A DNA stretch of 18,914 nt from Desulfovibrio sp. (GTDB lineage Bacteria > Desulfobacterota > Desulfovibrionia > Desulfovibrionales > Desulfovibrionaceae): the NCBI GenBank assembly GCA_031282465.1, contig JAITDR010000244.1, forward strand, positions 1 through 18,914, given 5' to 3'. The translations under genes and the position numbers were made by a program. Shown piece after piece: positions 7,213 through 12,734 of this stretch. The notes beneath the pieces were generated by a model that was given only the letters and a program-made list of their open reading frames with translations, searched no databases and was not told the origin of the DNA. Numbering within the stretch: the stretch's first letter is position 1; each line of letters opens with the position of its first letter.

Positions 7213-7719
7213 TCATGCACGCAACGTCGCCCTGACGATGTCGCGTATCTCTTTGCGTGTAAGAACCCGTTGATTGTCGCTTCCCTTGAACGCCGAATCC
7301 GGAGAGCGCAGTTCCTGAATATACGGGCCGTCCACAAGAATATCCGTCAAATGAAGCAACCTGCGGACATCTTTGTCCCGCACCGCCGACCGGACAAGGT
7401 CTTCACAAAGGTATCCGGTATAGACGACAAGGTTCTTCCCTGCCCGCTTCACATATTCCGCCGGAATACAGGCCGTCCGCGCCTGCAAAAAAGGCTCTCC
7501 CCCGGAAAGCGTCATGCCCGACAAAAGGGGATTTGCCGTGAACAGCGCGATGATGTCGTCCGTATCGGCGCTGTATCCTCCGGACGGGTCATGTGTGCCG
7601 GGGTTGTGGCATCCCCTGCAGCGGTGCGGGCACCCCTGCATGAACACCACAAAGCGCAACCCCGGCCCGTCGACTATAGATTCCTCAACAATGCCGCTCA
7701 GGCGAATACTGTGCCCCAT
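7213..7719 (-). CDS. nrdG: Anaerobic ribonucleotide reductase activase NrdG
   Basis: This is the radical SAM activase that uses a 4Fe-4S cluster and S-adenosylmethionine to place the glycyl radical on the class III reductase. The cluster motif C30-PHR-C34-RG-C37 (CxxxCxxC) is followed by HNPGTHD. TLSGGEPF is the SAM-binding GGE motif. The N-terminal GIVEESIVDGPGLRFVVFMQG is typical of the family. Length 168 aa is normal. The ATG at 7719 has GGAG six bases upstream; that GGAG is part of the last unit of a degenerate repeat. It is the third gene of the nrd operon, and its substrate would be the separate glycyl-radical polypeptide at 7820-7996. Confidence 0.95.
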   Translation of the reverse strand: MGHSIRLSGIVEESIVDGPGLRFVVFMQGCPHRCRGCHNPGTHDPSGGYSADTDDIIALFTANPLLSGMTLSGGEPFLQARTACIPAEYVKRAGKNLVVYTGYLCEDLVRSAVRDKDVRRLLHLTDILVDGPYIQELRSPDSAFKGSDNQRVLTRKEIRDIVRATLRA

Positions 7720-7842
7720 GCTTTACTCCGAGGCGCATTGTACCCCTGTACTGCGCTTCACCCCGCGCGCATTTTACCCTGCGCTTTACTCCGCGGCATA
7801 GTTCGCCCTGCGGAGTGCTTCACTCGGTTGCGTGCTTCACTC
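7720..7842 (-). repeat. Degenerate tandem repeats between glycyl-radical ORF and nrdG
   Basis: Read on the minus strand, GAGTRAAGC or a close variant recurs five times, at plus positions 7834-7842, 7817-7825, 7783-7791, 7755-7763 (GGGTGAAGC) and 7720-7728. The spacings are 17, 34, 28 and 35 bp. The first copy encodes the conserved Arg-Val-Lys of the upstream ORF and the last supplies the nrdG ribosome binding site. A 13-codon ORF (ATG near 7799 to TGA near 7758) lies in the array. Confidence 0.7.
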
Positions 7843-7996
7843 TGTCCCGTTCTTCGGCTCTTTTGGCGTTGTTGAAGCGGTCGAGCGTACCGACGAGATA
7901 CCCGGTAATTCTGCGGGTGCGTTCGAAACCGACATTTTCCCCGACTGTCTTGTCGACATTTTTGAGTTTCGCCTGTTTTTGCGTGTCAAGCAGCAC
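7820..7996 (-). CDS. Stand-alone glycyl-radical domain of class III ribonucleotide reductase
   Basis: This 58-codon ORF starts at GTG (7994-7996) and ends at TGA (7820-7822). AAAGGAG lies six bases before the GTG, the strongest ribosome binding site in the operon. The product holds the glycyl-radical signature that nrdD lacks: RRITGYLVGTLDRFN at residues 28-42, with Gly32 as the likely radical site, then NAKRAEERDRVKH (43-55), the usual end of this NrdD type. It is in the same frame as nrdD, separated by an amber stop and 35 codons with no NrdD-like sequence. It would bind NrdD and be activated by NrdG. An alternative is TAG readthrough giving one fused chain, but the dedicated start signal argues against that. 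Confidence 0.85.
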   Translation of the reverse strand: MLLDTQKQAKLKNVDKTVGENVGFERTRRITGYLVGTLDRFNNAKRAEERDRVKHATE

Positions 7997-8068
7997 AGTT
8001 GTCTCCTTTAACAGGTTATAGTGTTGCTGTGGTGCGCATCCGGCCGCTTTCCGACTCGTGCCGGCGCT

Positions 8069-8090
8069 GCAGCGACCGGGCGGCCGCTGC
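8069..8090 (-). other. Hairpin between nrdD stop and glycyl-radical ORF
   Basis: GCAGCG (8069-8074) and CGCTGC (8085-8090) form a perfect 6-bp GC-rich stem with a 10-nt loop, starting 12 nt after the nrdD amber codon. No T-run follows, so termination is unlikely. It could protect the upstream mRNA 3' end or keep ribosomes apart. Confidence 0.45.
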
Positions 8091-8101
8091 CCGAAATTGC
8101 C

Positions 8102-10360
8102 CTATTGCTTGTGTACGGGAACATCGGGATAAATCTTCCGCAAGGCGTTGAGAAAATCAACGTCGACGCCTTCGCCTTCCTTTCTGCCGCATCGCGGGCA
8201 GACATCGTTGATGACGCCGATATAGCCGCAGACCGGGTCGCGGTCCAAAGGGTGGTTGACGGAACCGTAACCTATCCCCTGCTCGTGCATATAGCGGATG
8301 ACGGCTTCAAACGCTTCAAGGTTTTTGCTCGGATCTCCATCCAGTTCGACATAGGTGATGTGGCCGGCGTTGGTCAGGGCGTGGTACGGCGCTTCCAGTT
8401 GAATTTTGCGGAAGGCCTTGACGGGAAAGTAGACCGGGATATGAAAGGAGTTGGTGTAATACTCTCTGTCCGTCACGCCGGGCAACACGCCGTATTTCTT
8501 TCTGTCGGCGGCGACGAAGCGTCCGCTGAGGCCTTCGGCCGGTGTGGCGATCAGCGTGAAGTTCAGCCCCGTTTCCCGCGACGCGTCGTCCGCGCGCCTG
8601 CGCATGTGGCCGACAATTTTCAGACCCAGTTCCTGCGCCCCGTCGTCCTCACCGTGATGTTGGCCGATCAGCGCCTTGAGAGTTTCCGCCAATCCGATAA
8701 ATCCGATAGTCAGCGTCCCGTGCCGGATAACCTCGTCAATGCGGTCGTCCGGCCCGAGTTTGTCCGAGTCCAGCCAAATACCCTGGCCCATGAGAAAGGG
8801 ATAATTACGGACCTTCTTCGCGCCCTGTATTTTGAACCTGTGCATAAGCTGGCGGAAAACAAGATCAATCATCTCATCCAGCCGGGAGAAAAAATTGTCG
8901 ACATCGCCCCCGGCCTCAATGCCCAAGCGGGGCAGGTTCACCGACGTGAAACTGAGATTGCCGCGTCCGCATGTGACCTCGCGGGATCCGTCGTACACGT
9001 TGCCGATGACGCGGGTTCGGCAACCCATGTAGGCGACTTCGCTGTTGTAGTCGCCCGGCTTGTAATAACGCAAGTTGAACGGCGCATCCAAAAAGCTGAA
9101 GTTGGGGAAAAGCCGCTTGGCGGATGTCTCCAGCGCCGCCCGGAACAGGTCGTAATTGGGGTCGCCGGGGTTGTAATTGACCCCTTCCTTGACTTTGAAT
9201 ATCTGCACGGGAAAAATGGGTGTTTCACCGTTGCCCAGCCCGGCCTGCGTTGCCGAGAGCAGGTTCTTGACAACCATCCGTCCCTCGGGGGAGGTGTCCG
9301 TCCCGTAGTTGATGGAACTGAAGGGTACCTGCGCGCCCGCCCTGGAATTCATGGTGTTCAGATTGTGAATGAGGGCTTCCATAGCCTGATAGGTGCGCCG
9401 GTCCGTCGCGGCCGATGCTTCGGAAGCCGCGTAGGCATGCGCTTTGCGCAGCAAATCCCCGTGTTCCGGGTCGGACGGGGATTGCTGAAGCGTTGCCGGC
9501 GCTTCGGCGCCGCGCATGCGCAGGCGCACGCCGTCGCCAGCCAACAGTCGGGCAGTCTGCTCCTCTGCCTGTTCCCGGTTCATCCCGTCGGCTATCTGCA
9601 GAAAAGCGCGGAAGGCCTTTTCATATTCTTTCCTGTACGTCTTGCGCACGCCTTGAGCCATGGCGAAATCAAAATTGGGCAGACTTTGCCCGCCGTGCAT
9701 TTCATTCTGGTTGGCCTGAACGGCAATGCACGCCAGCGCCGAACAGCTTTCAACGGAGTTGGGTTCCCGCAAGTGTCCGTGGCCTGTGGAAAAACCGTTT
9801 TTGAACAGCGGAATCAGGTCAATCTGGCAGCAGGTTTCCGTGAGCATGTAAAAATCTTTGTCGTGGATGTGAATGTCGCCGCCGATATGCGCCGCCGAGG
9901 CGTCTTTGGGAAGAATATAGTTGTCGATGAAAAACTTTGACCCTTCAGAACCGTACCTGAGCATGGTTCCCATCGCCGTGTCGCCGTCAATATTGGCGTT
10001 TTCTCGTTTGATATCCTCCTCAAGCGCCGGTGACCATGTCAATTTTTTATAAATATCCATCAGATACGATTCGGCATTGCGTATCTTGGTGTGTTCGGCG
10101 CGGTAGAGAATATAGGCCTTTGCGGTTTTCGCGTACCCGTAACGGATCAGGGATTCTTCGACTACATCCTGAATTTCCTCAACGTGGCGCAAATTCCTGG
10201 TCTTGAGTGTTTTGCACACTTTCTCCGTGACGAAAAGCAGATCCGTGGAGGTCATTTCCTCTTCGCCCACAGCTTTGTTGGCTTTGCTGACGGCATTCAG
10301 AATCTTGGTGGAATCGAAGGGAACGGGCGTCCCGTTGCGCTTGATGATTGTTTCGGACAC
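8102..10360 (-). CDS. nrdD: Anaerobic ribonucleoside-triphosphate reductase NrdD, lacking the glycyl-radical tail
   Basis: This class III reductase makes dNTPs from NTPs without oxygen. The start is the GTG at 10358-10360 with GAGG five bases upstream; an upstream ATG at 10435 lies before the intrinsic terminator and is unlikely. Of 752 residues, 1-95 form the ATP-cone allosteric domain (IIKRNGTPVPFDSTKI). The catalytic barrel follows, with GGDIHIHDKDF (160-170), QANQNEMHGGQS (215-226) and the thiyl-radical Cys447 in MGCRTR. A zinc-ribbon piece lies at 707-725 with Cys711, Cys721 and Cys724; a fourth Cys is not obvious. The protein then stops at an amber codon (8102-8104) before any RxxxGY glycyl-radical motif, which is normally at the C-terminus. 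That motif is encoded by the next ORF, so activity should need both chains. Expression is controlled by a cobalamin riboswitch. Confidence 0.95.
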   Translation of the reverse strand: MSETIIKRNGTPVPFDSTKILNAVSKANKAVGEEEMTSTDLLFVTEKVCKTLKTRNLRHVEEIQDVVEESLIRYGYAKTAKAYILYRAEHTKIRNAESYLMDIYKKLTWSPALEEDIKRENANIDGDTAMGTMLRYGSEGSKFFIDNYILPKDASAAHIGGDIHIHDKDFYMLTETCCQIDLIPLFKNGFSTGHGHLREPNSVESCSALACIAVQANQNEMHGGQSLPNFDFAMAQGVRKTYRKEYEKAFRAFLQIADGMNREQAEEQTARLLAGDGVRLRMRGAEAPATLQQSPSDPEHGDLLRKAHAYAASEASAATDRRTYQAMEALIHNLNTMNSRAGAQVPFSSINYGTDTSPEGRMVVKNLLSATQAGLGNGETPIFPVQIFKVKEGVNYNPGDPNYDLFRAALETSAKRLFPNFSFLDAPFNLRYYKPGDYNSEVAYMGCRTRVIGNVYDGSREVTCGRGNLSFTSVNLPRLGIEAGGDVDNFFSRLDEMIDLVFRQLMHRFKIQGAKKVRNYPFLMGQGIWLDSDKLGPDDRIDEVIRHGTLTIGFIGLAETLKALIGQHHGEDDGAQELGLKIVGHMRRRADDASRETGLNFTLIATPAEGLSGRFVAADRKKYGVLPGVTDREYYTNSFHIPVYFPVKAFRKIQLEAPYHALTNAGHITYVELDGDPSKNLEAFEAVIRYMHEQGIGYGSVNHPLDRDPVCGYIGVINDVCPRCGRKEGEGVDVDFLNALRKIYPDVPVHKQ

Positions 10361-10376
10361 GGTATCCTCGCCGTTG

Positions 10377-10390
10377 CTGCCCGCGGGCAG
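10377..10390 (-). other. 14-bp perfect palindrome before nrdD
   Basis: CTGCCCGCGGGCAG is fully self-complementary and sits between the intrinsic terminator T-tract and the nrdD ribosome binding site. It may be a protein-binding site or an RNA hairpin near the start; nothing in the sequence decides. Confidence 0.4.
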
Positions 10391-10392
10391 AC

Positions 10393-10426
10393 AAAAAAAA
10401 TTCCCCATCCCTGCGGGAACGGGGAG
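10393..10426 (-). terminator. Intrinsic terminator of the riboswitch expression platform
   Basis: On the minus strand TCCCC/GGGGA and an inner CCC/GGG close a GC-rich hairpin followed by eight T (plus 10393-10400). It lies between the cobalamin aptamer and the nrdD start. AACGGG in the leader (plus 10466-10471) can pair with CCCGTT in the terminator's 5' arm (plus 10418-10423), so it is a candidate antiterminator. Confidence 0.8.
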
Positions 10427-10500
10427 GAAACGCATTTATCCTCTCATCTCGCCCGCCGGCAAAGTCCCGTTGCCGCGGGGTCGTCTCCTGTGACGCCTGT

Positions 10501-10656: not shown

Positions 10657-11011
10657 AAAAAATATCTAAAGTTCATCGTGCCGTCAAATTTTCCATCTCC
10701 CCGCAAAAATTGAATCTCTTCTATAACAACGCAAGATAACAAAATTTTTTTTATGAAAATTTTTCCGATGCTGCCTTGTTGTTGCCTGTGGACGCACTGA
10801 TGTGCTCTTTTTGCGAGGGTGACGCCCCGCTGCATCTGCGTTTCCATAGAAGCGCGATTTCCCCGTGTCAACGTCGAAAAGGCACCCAAGCGCCGAGACC
10901 GACCTTGCTTTTTTGTCGCCGTTGCTCCAGTATTTCATGTGGGCATGCATCCTCAGCCTGCTCGAAAAAGAGATCCGGCGTTGCGCCGTGCCGGCCGGTC
11001 ACAGTCAAGCG
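10657..11011. other. Divergent nrdD/umuD promoter region, no gene
   Basis: The part from about 10680 to 10770 is AT-rich and should hold the nrdD promoter reading left. A TATAGA-like -10 is visible on the minus strand near 10720, but no good -35. The right part leads to umuD. Open frames here lack family motifs. I searched for an E. coli-type LexA site (CTGT-N8-ACAG) and saw none. Confidence 0.4.
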
Positions 11012-11482
11012 ATGTCCGTCACTAAAGCCTTTCCCGTTGCGGGTGCGTTGCCCGTTGAGTCCGATTCCTGCAGGGCAACCTCCCCGCTTTTTTTGTCGCC
11101 CGCCCAAGCGGGCTTCCCTTCCCCAGCCGATGATTATGTGGACCGCAAGCTTGATCTGCACGAGCATTTGGTGCGCAACAGCGTTTCCACTTTTTTCCTG
11201 CGCGCCTCGGGCGATTCCATGATTCGGGCGGGCATCCGGGACGGCGATCTTCTCGTGGCCGACCGCTCGCTGCGGCCTGTCAACGGTTGTGTGGTCGTTG
11301 CCGCCGTCGGCGGCGAATTGACGATCAAGTACTTTGTGCAACGGCGCGGACGTGCCCTGCTTGTTCCGGCCAACGAGGCGTATCCGGAACTCGACGTAAC
11401 CGAACGCGAAGATGCCGTGATCTGGGGAGTCGTGACTTATGCCGTCCATAAACTCGCCCCATGCCCTTTGGGCGCTGGTTGA
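11012..11482 (+). CDS. umuD: UmuD-type LexA-like self-cleaving protein
   Basis: This is the SOS mutagenesis accessory protein that self-cleaves on RecA filaments and pairs with UmuC. From the ATG at 11012 it has 156 residues. The scissile site is probably Ala33-Gly34 in SPAQAGFPSPADDYV. The Ser-Lys dyad is Ser69 (SGDSM) and Lys106 (LTIKYF). The 37-residue spacing equals that of E. coli UmuD. The start is uncertain: there is no good ribosome binding site at 11012, GTG 10988 is in frame, and the frame opens at 10865 without conserved sequence. The last 44 bases overlap umuC, showing a coupled operon. Confidence 0.9.
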   Translation: MSVTKAFPVAGALPVESDSCRATSPLFLSPAQAGFPSPADDYVDRKLDLHEHLVRNSVSTFFLRASGDSMIRAGIRDGDLLVADRSLRPVNGCVVVAAVGGELTIKYFVQRRGRALLVPANEAYPELDVTEREDAVIWGVVTYAVHKLAPCPLGAG

Positions 11483-12734
11483 CTGCAACAATTTTTTTGC
11501 CTCGTGCGAGCGGCTTTTCCGACCGGACCTGGCAGACAGGCCCGTCGTGGTGTTATCCAACAACGACGGCTGTATCGTGGCGCGTTCCAATGAAGCCAAG
11601 GCGTTGGGCATAGGCATGGGGGAACCCGAATTCAAAGTCAGAGAACTCCTGCGTATGCACGATGTCGCCGTTTTCTCGTCCAACTACGTCTTGTACGGCG
11701 ACATTGCCTCCCGCGTCATGCGGACGTTGGAGAGCATAGTCCCGGAAGTGGAACAGTATTCCATTGATGAAGCGTTTGTGCCGTTGCGCGGAGCACTCGC
11801 CGCCAATGCCGACGGAATCGCCGACGAGATGTGGCGTCGCGTGCGCCGATGGACGGGCATAGGGGTAGCGGTCGGCCTCGGCGCAACCCGCACGTTGGCG
11901 AAAATCGCATCAGAGAGAGCGAAAAAGGGATGCGGCGTCTGTCGTCTCGAAGCCGGGCCGGAAGCGAACGGGATACTGGAGGCAACGCCGGTAGGCGATG
12001 TCTGGGGCATCGGCAGAAAATCGGATTTGAAACTGCGCTCGTACGACATTTACACGGCGCGGCAACTGCGCGATGCGGACGGGGCATTGATCAGGAAATT
12101 GCTCGGCATAGCCGGGACGCACACGGCTCTTGAACTGCGCGGCATACCCTGCCTGGATGCCGCGAACGCGCCGATGCCCAGGCGGAGCATGGTATCGTCC
12201 CGGTCGTTCGGCGAAAAGGTCCGCGACAAACAATATCTGGCCGAGGCGCTTGCCATGCACGCATCTCTGGCCGGAGAGCGGCTGCGCAAGGAAAAATTGG
12301 AAGCAGGCGGATTGACCGTGCATATCCGGACATCGAGGCACGGAGTAGAGGCGTTTTACGACGAAACGGCTTCGATAACGCTTGCCCGGCCTACGTCAAG
12401 CACACGAGACTTTATACACGCAACGGCGAGGGGGTTGGAGGCAATTTTTCGACCCGGCTACGCATACGCCAAAGCGGGCATAATACTGTACGACCTTGCC
12501 GCGCCCGGCAGCCGTCCCGGCAACCTGCTCAATTGGATCAAAACTGATGCCGGCGACAAAAAAAGCGACACTAAGCTGATGCACGCGTTGGATGTGGTCA
12601 ACCGGCGCTTCGGGCGCGGTATGCTCCGATTTGCGGCTGAAGGCAAACGTGCGGCCCCGTGGCACGTCAAAAGCGACAGGCGCTCGCCGAGAGCCACAAC
12701 GGCTTGGGATGAACTGCCGGTGGTTAAATGCTGA
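11439..12734 (+). CDS. umuC: DNA polymerase V catalytic subunit UmuC
   Basis: This is a Y-family translesion DNA polymerase. LVDCNNFFASCERLF (residues 13-27) carries the first metal-binding Asp15 and the steric-gate region. SIDEAF (108-113) carries catalytic Asp110 and Glu111. A helix-hairpin-helix region and little finger follow. The C-terminal RFGRGMLRFAAEG and SPRATTAWDELPVV are typical of the UmuC tail that contacts UmuD' and the beta clamp. Length 431 aa is normal. The ATG has GGGGAG (11424-11429) nine bases upstream. It overlaps umuD by 44 bp and its 3' end overlaps a leftward ORF by 11 bp. Confidence 0.96.
   Translation: MPSINSPHALWALVDCNNFFASCERLFRPDLADRPVVVLSNNDGCIVARSNEAKALGIGMGEPEFKVRELLRMHDVAVFSSNYVLYGDIASRVMRTLESIVPEVEQYSIDEAFVPLRGALAANADGIADEMWRRVRRWTGIGVAVGLGATRTLAKIASERAKKGCGVCRLEAGPEANGILEATPVGDVWGIGRKSDLKLRSYDIYTARQLRDADGALIRKLLGIAGTHTALELRGIPCLDAANAPMPRRSMVSSRSFGEKVRDKQYLAEALAMHASLAGERLRKEKLEAGGLTVHIRTSRHGVEAFYDETASITLARPTSSTRDFIHATARGLEAIFRPGYAYAKAGIILYDLAAPGSRPGNLLNWIKTDAGDKKSDTKLMHALDVVNRRFGRGMLRFAAEGKRAAPWHVKSDRRSPRATTAWDELPVVKC

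Follow-up and report, generated by a model that had tools for sequence, protein, structure and literature searches.

Class III ribonucleotide reductase (RNR) makes DNA building blocks without oxygen, and the full-length NrdD proteins of known structure (Prevotella copri, 8p23; S. thermophilus, 9d3x; T4, 1h78) have an ATP-cone (where present), a catalytic barrel, a zinc ribbon, and the glycyl-radical loop on one chain. In an 18,914-nt stretch of DNA from Desulfovibrio sp. (GenBank assembly GCA_031282465.1, contig JAITDR010000244.1; the whole stretch is called the window below), we identified an nrdD core that shares the first three of these parts, whereas its radical loop, which is like the RITGYLVGT-type loop of the P. 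copri enzyme, is on a small gene of its own, the glycyl-radical-domain (GRD) gene. Small separate glycyl-radical proteins have been described before (GrcA/YfiD and T4 Y06I; phage-encoded versions exist), and according to the accessible part of PMC8683613 only two such spare-part proteins had been validated by 2021, both for pyruvate formate-lyase, while spare parts for other glycyl-radical enzymes were raised as an open possibility. GrcA/YfiD, however, replaces the end of a damaged full-length enzyme, whereas the window core never has the domain; it belongs to another family, since the small open reading frame (ORF) of the window has no match to PF01228, the pyruvate formate-lyase-type glycyl-radical domain; and it coexists with its intact parent enzyme, a situation not found in the window's own genome (67% complete) but found for a family of ~88-aa proteins described below. 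The split class II enzyme NrdJa/NrdJb (PMC5704485 and PMC9669993, each accessible in part) is likewise an RNR with its C-terminal domain encoded as a separate gene, but that domain is cysteine-rich and zinc-binding, is tied to re-reduction and oligomerisation, and is not a radical carrier; nor does the window core have the class II barrel, its best matches being class III models and structures. We found no description of a split class III NrdD or of an RNR spare part in searches of an open-access library (one without most subscription papers and without any bioRxiv preprints), including the accessible portions of PMC9531940, PMC12288474, PMC10507020, PMC12338860, PMC3019208, PMC4390871, and PMC4493059. 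We consider it highly probable that the core and the small gene together specify a true class III RNR of two chains, given the complementary halves of PF13597, the conservation and selection of the small domain, its co-occurrence with the core, the gene order, and the repeated splitting and fusion of the two parts.

The two genes divide one family between them: of the 562 positions of Pfam NRDD (PF13597), 1-531 match the long protein (E 3e-187) and 533-562 the small one, which scores over the cut-off against this family alone. The core also matches PF03477 (ATP-cone, E 2.4e-20) and PRK07111 (1057 bits; cut-off 764), its model resembles NrdD structures in a fold search, and its best PDB matches by both sequence and fold are full-length NrdDs; what it lacks is the same-chain glycyl-radical domain of class III NrdD, as the profile match ends at position 531. 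It reads AYMGCRTRV in the finger-loop cysteine region and CGY...CPRC in the zinc ribbon, which we take to be the finger-loop and zinc-ribbon motifs of the family, positioned by aligning a fused relative to 8p23. Of the 92 proteins counted (five of which are other NrdDs), 90 have MGCx[TS] and 88 have the zinc motif. The coordinates and the division of PF13597 agree with the first-pass annotation, made from the sequence alone, which had nrdD ending at a TAG after the zinc ribbon with no glycyl-radical motif, and the NrdD C-terminal end on a separate ORF: the stop is TAG 8104-8102, after CGYIGVINDVCPRCGRKEGEG and 21 further residues, and the short protein, which holds FERTRRITGYLVGTLDRFNNAKRAEERDRVKH, begins at a GTG (ORF 7996-7820) with AAAGGAG six bases 5′ of the start codon. 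Across 87 split cores the tail after the zinc ribbon has a median length of 28 residues (range 16-54). The product of the downstream nrdG is nearest to TIGR02491 (E 7e-35; 120.2 bits, slightly below the cut-off of 126.1), and passes the cut-offs for radical-SAM and Fer4_12. Table 1 gives the coordinates.

Table 1. Features of the split nrdD locus, in positions of the window.
Feature	Position	Strand	Remark
nrdD core	8102..10435	minus	ATP-cone, NRDD catalytic domain, and zinc ribbon, without glycyl-radical loop
Zinc-ribbon cysteines of NrdD (CGYIGVINDVCPRC), kept on the core	8189..8230	minus	corresponding position found when a fused relative is aligned to 8p23
Core tail after CPRC, 28 residues, where the glycyl-radical loop would be	8105..8188	minus	
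Spacer, 105 nt, with ribosome-binding site AAAGGAG (8009-8003)	7997..8101	minus	length and frame differ among relatives
GRD gene, separate, 58 codons, GTG start	7820..7996	minus	
Codon for Gly32 (RRIT-G-YLVG), the glycine predicted to carry the radical	7901..7903	minus	alignment with Prevotella copri NrdD
nrdG, radical-SAM activase	7213..7719	minus	best family TIGR02491

When the fused relative L071 (L and G numbers are our handles for loci and genomes) is aligned to P. copri NrdD (8p23), its TGY glycine falls at chain position 715, and the radical residue of that enzyme is Gly711 according to the accessible part of PMC11226230; the offset of four residues is taken to be an expression tag. Since the TGY glycine thus aligns with a known radical glycine of a full-length NrdD, Gly32 of the small protein is the predicted radical site. 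It is unchanged in all 30 rows of an alignment of stand-alone domains (A1), picked from 120 listed homologues of the small ORF. The small ORF did not arise by chance: 7996 of the 8000 scored candidates of 32-101 aa match it at E<=0.01, although part of them may be contig-edge pieces of fused proteins. Over a 31-codon domain, the nonsynonymous proportion of differences (pN) is below the synonymous one (pS) in all 3741 pairs of the 87 cellular copies and in all 2835 differing pairs of the 76 viral copies; the cellular and viral medians are 0.91 and 0.84 for pS, with synonymous sites near saturation in most pairs, and 0.12 and 0.13 for pN. For the window against nine relatives from its genus, pS is 0.14-0.98 and pN 0-0.08. 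Judged by these values, the GRD is under purifying selection. TGYLV belonged to the search pattern of this set, so its invariance there carries no weight; outside the pattern, the columns that are 100% conserved in both the cellular and viral sets are the final Gly of LVG plus N, K, E, and R within NNAKRAEERDR.

The same arrangement recurs in related genomes. A profile scan of species genomes with A1 gave at least 587 relatives; we retained the best 80, which biases the set towards stand-alone forms. In 68 of these 80 loci an nrdD core precedes the small ORF, in seven the domain stands alone and the fetched sequence shows no core upstream of it, three are fused, one is cut by the contig start, and one (L107) has a variant motif outside the search pattern. 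The window, these 68, and nine genus relatives make up 78 split loci, and nrdG is downstream in 68 of them.

In a quick tree comprising 87 split cores, nine fused ones of the same type, and 10 from an outgroup (106 in all), supported only by the Shimodaira-Hasegawa-like approximate likelihood ratio test, split and fused forms are interleaved, with at least six changes between them, all forced by starred branches; a single origin of the split is therefore unsupported. The tree leaves out 30 of the 40 RVVGY-type proteins, three CGY-type proteins, and two other fused proteins, and some long branches meet in it, making single placements unsure; the window row is identical to L001. One viral pair, a split protein and a fused one, shares 86% identity. 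The changes may have run in either direction, by splitting or by re-fusion, and the repeated fusion and separation indicate that core and small chain very probably assemble and act together. Anatomy, conservation, co-occurrence, and the interleaving of split and fused relatives all support the proposal that the radical glycine is on a separate small protein.

We also checked how the split is distributed among genomes. The family sample consisted of 68 genomes of the window's family, each at least 95% complete, and the window's own: split cores were found in 17 of these 69. In 16 of these genomes a stand-alone GRD lies next to the core; the 17th core (G073) ends 115 nt from a contig end. Two of the genomes with a split core and adjacent GRD (G039 and G040) are single-contig genomes. 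Within the window's genus, the small gene is present in 10 of 15 genomes. In a Bacilli order (that of G329, a metagenome-assembled genome (MAG) titled uncultured Bacillales), 60 genomes yielded 17 split cores and 17 adjacent GRDs, with none elsewhere; an adjacent GRD is found in 17/17 split-core genomes versus 0/43 others (Fisher p 2.6e-15). The split is also present in single clostridial lineages, a MAG titled Anaerobiospirillum, and phages, in addition to Desulfovibrionaceae and Bacilli. The first-pass annotation could not tell how far it extends among relatives, a question that these counts answer in part: no split core was found in the 69 genomes sampled from one clostridial class (that of G204, a MAG titled Anaerostipes), where stand-alone GRDs occur in G204 and G324 only, nor in 71 from the order to which G205, a MAG with the title uncultured Clostridiales, belongs. 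A trait widespread in all Clostridia is ruled out by the former count, and the split is scattered across lineages.

Eleven genomes of the same Bacilli order (G342, G347, G349, G351, G361, G366, G367, G374, G383, G390, and G393) contain divergent NrdD-like open frames of 632-675 aa, in which the profile match ends before the radical domain; in all of them except G383 this frame is 1-2 kb from a fused nrdD.

In the enzyme that we propose, the NrdD core (ATP-cone, catalytic barrel, and zinc ribbon) would be made apart from a 58-residue subunit holding the glycyl-radical loop and the C-terminal tail; the small chain would dock at the place of the fused domain, NrdG would generate the radical on its Gly32, and the radical would then move to the core, onto its finger-loop cysteine. 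Oxygen cuts glycyl-radical enzymes at the radical glycine, so only the ~6.5-kDa chain would be lost after such cleavage, and it would be replaceable. We infer assembly, activation by NrdG, exchange after damage, and repair after oxygen cleavage from comparative evidence and from what is known of the family. With a natural two-chain enzyme, the radical subunit alone could be labelled, swapped, or mutated, which is hard with a fused NrdD. Other observations lend no support to such an enzyme or weigh against it. When the window chain was modelled by AlphaFold2 through the TAG (read as Q), the GRD stayed undocked, at a predicted local distance difference test (pLDDT) score of about 30, so the model gives docking no structural support; the input of 38 rows was, though, too shallow for this domain (nine fused and four stand-alone rows) for the result to count clearly against docking. 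A full-length NrdD is found instead in five of the 15 genus genomes, and the four that were read are of a distant type. Lastly, the class III enzyme may be dispensable for survival, since the window's own genome also encodes a class I/II-type RNR (PF02867, G000:C57).

Cores and GRDs are not always paired one to one. In the Desulfovibrio MAG G203, one core is followed directly by nrdG with no GRD between, and GRDs were found on other contigs; G034 has one core with one adjacent GRD and two unlinked ones; G026 and G070 have one core and one extra GRD each; G200 and G206 likewise have one core and extra GRDs; and G199 is an ambiguous case, with two GRDs on other contigs and a remnant of the motif next to its core. 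Most of these genomes are draft assemblies, in which binning errors may affect single cases. An extra GRD may share peculiarities of its host's copy (an identical one-residue insertion in both GRDs of G026, and RRVTG in both of G206) or differ from it at several positions (G070). Four extra GRDs, all in Desulfovibrionaceae-type genomes, have phage-like genes around them: L184:1447-1611 (G203:C187) adjoins terminase subunits and an endolysin, L174:1978-2181 (G026:C9) comes after a tail protein, L173:2181-2411 (G034) is near a replication-initiation protein, and for L172:2071-2277 (G034) the neighbor's sole match is to a phage family of unknown function. We rejected an apparent further spare in G007, which reads as a fragment with a stop just upstream.

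A scan of IMG/VR with the same alignment gave 371 relatives, and among the best 80 kept, the domain is on a separate short frame in 76, fused in three, and without motif in one. For eight of the 76 stand-alone frames, the sequence fetched around them also matches nrdD (L253 among these, as part of an nrdD in pieces), and a full-profile search of 50 of the 80 records found 42 with a GRD and no core, and eight with core sequence; the viral records may be fragments. Of ten neighbor proteins from eight viral loci, eight belong to phage families with a stated function (a RusA resolvase, two replication-initiation proteins, two endolysins, a tail fibre, an internal virion protein, and, weakly, an excisionase), one to a family of unknown function, and one has no match. 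Annotated phage records match in 14 of 50,697 cases. The extra, unlinked, and phage-borne copies, together with a core that directly precedes nrdG while the GRDs are on other contigs, support the view that the small chain may be exchangeable.

Two viral records have an unusual nrdD. Eggerthella phage EL753P1 (OP172808; L271:3700-7131) has a long nrdD, downstream of which the radical domain is matched in two pieces; the annotation calls this region hypothetical. In G248, the IMG/VR record of L253, the viral nrdD is spread over five profile matches, one with internal stops; introns, decay, or another code could account for this.

A different arrangement was found beside intact enzymes. G202, G205, G208, and G210 have a full-length NrdD and a protein of ~88 aa, which consists of a conserved N-terminal domain of ~50 residues and the NrdD radical domain. 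Six of the 71 genomes in the order of G205 have such proteins (seven genes): nrdD is intact and fused in all six (L272, L279-L282, and L126), the N-terminal domain is present in all seven candidate spares (L273-L278 and L190), and the genes are on contigs other than that of nrdD or, in G420, ~1.3 Mb away from it on one contig of 3.97 Mb. Loci of this family include L190:1327-1593, L273-L278, L147, and L182, and among the matches listed all 120 homologues have 98-100% query coverage. AlphaFold2 models of the protein alone gave the N-terminal domain a beta-alpha-beta-beta fold at pLDDT 71-79, with the GRD under 50. Because it coexists, unlinked, with an intact fused NrdD, this family is a candidate RNR spare part and the one closest to GrcA/YfiD. 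The likeness to GrcA drawn in the first-pass annotation thus fits the ~88-aa family but not the window locus, where, because the core lacks any such domain, the small protein is by its gene content a required partner and not a GrcA-style spare.

The scattered sharing of the tip and its loose phage copies suggest a swappable part. More broadly, the radical domain of class III RNR could be a mobile, interchangeable part: a replaceable subunit where the bacterial enzyme is split, an unlinked spare of ~88 aa that brings a docking domain of its own alongside the intact NrdD of other anaerobes, and a lone phage copy (sometimes host-matched) sustaining deoxynucleoside triphosphate synthesis after oxygen cleavage or host shut-down. 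We put the chances of this wider picture at about even; if true, it would make class III RNR the second glycyl-radical enzyme with a spare-part system. In anaerobes and their phages, the split form and the loose domains related to it are concrete, testable spare-part candidates for the oxygen-free DNA-precursor enzyme.

One alternative is compatible with a two-chain enzyme, namely that the split serves to tune expression or stoichiometry (half-site loading, or rapid synthesis) with no role in repair. The mostly conserved operon order agrees with it, and the small gene's own ribosome site permits a different ratio of the chains, but operon stoichiometry alone leaves the unlinked and phage-borne copies unexplained; we regard it as a serious possibility, though short of an even one. 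It is very unlikely that the small protein serves chiefly as an emergency spare of the GrcA kind, or as a regulator, while another full-length NrdD does the work. GrcA/YfiD serves pyruvate formate-lyase in this way (accessible part of PMC8683613), and the related ~88-aa family occurs with intact NrdD in other genomes; but the adjacent core is without any such domain, and fused NrdD was not found in 15 of the 17 split-core genomes of the family (the exceptions being G001 and G008) or in 14 of the 17 of the Bacilli order (exceptions G341, G359, and G381). The first-pass annotation had named another full-length nrdD as grounds for giving up its proposal, and a search for one found no second PF13597 match in the window's own genome, at 67% completeness.

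Readthrough, in which the in-frame TAG is decoded (by a suppressor, as pyrrolysine, or by a programmed event) to give a single long NrdD, would fit the window taken alone, where the TAG and the small ORF share one frame with no further stop in between. Over the 78 split loci, however, the frame relation between core and GRD is random (26/23/29; chi-square p 0.71), and all three stops end the core (TAA 40, TAG 23, and TGA 15); for example, in the nearest relative, L114, whose small protein is 95% identical, the GRD is in a different frame after a gap of 119 nt. There is also a ribosome site 5′ of the small ORF, and a start codon follows a ribosome-site-like tetramer in 80 of 82 stand-alone frames (counted without a shuffled control). 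The frame and stop-codon statistics rule out readthrough or pyrrolysine at the TAG for practical purposes, leaving it very improbable. Least probable of all is a sequencing error or recent pseudogenisation of a normal nrdD: the assembly is fragmented and the genome 67% complete, but a 28-residue tail and a 105-nt spacer between the parts are not one lesion, and relatives with the split in many lineages (two single-contig genomes among them) and the purifying selection on the GRD rule it out.

Some further features of the window concern the surroundings of the split gene. The true start of nrdD is probably near 10360, with the ATG at 10435 upstream of the real start, since residues 1-24 have a pLDDT under 50 and the family matches start near residue 28. 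Between the small gene and nrdG, degenerate repeats (GCTTTACTCCGCGGC-like, and GCGCATTNTACCC) are found at 7720-7831. Upstream of nrdD, on the opposite strand, the region 10865-12734 encodes an S24 peptidase (UmuD/LexA-like) and a UmuC-type polymerase.

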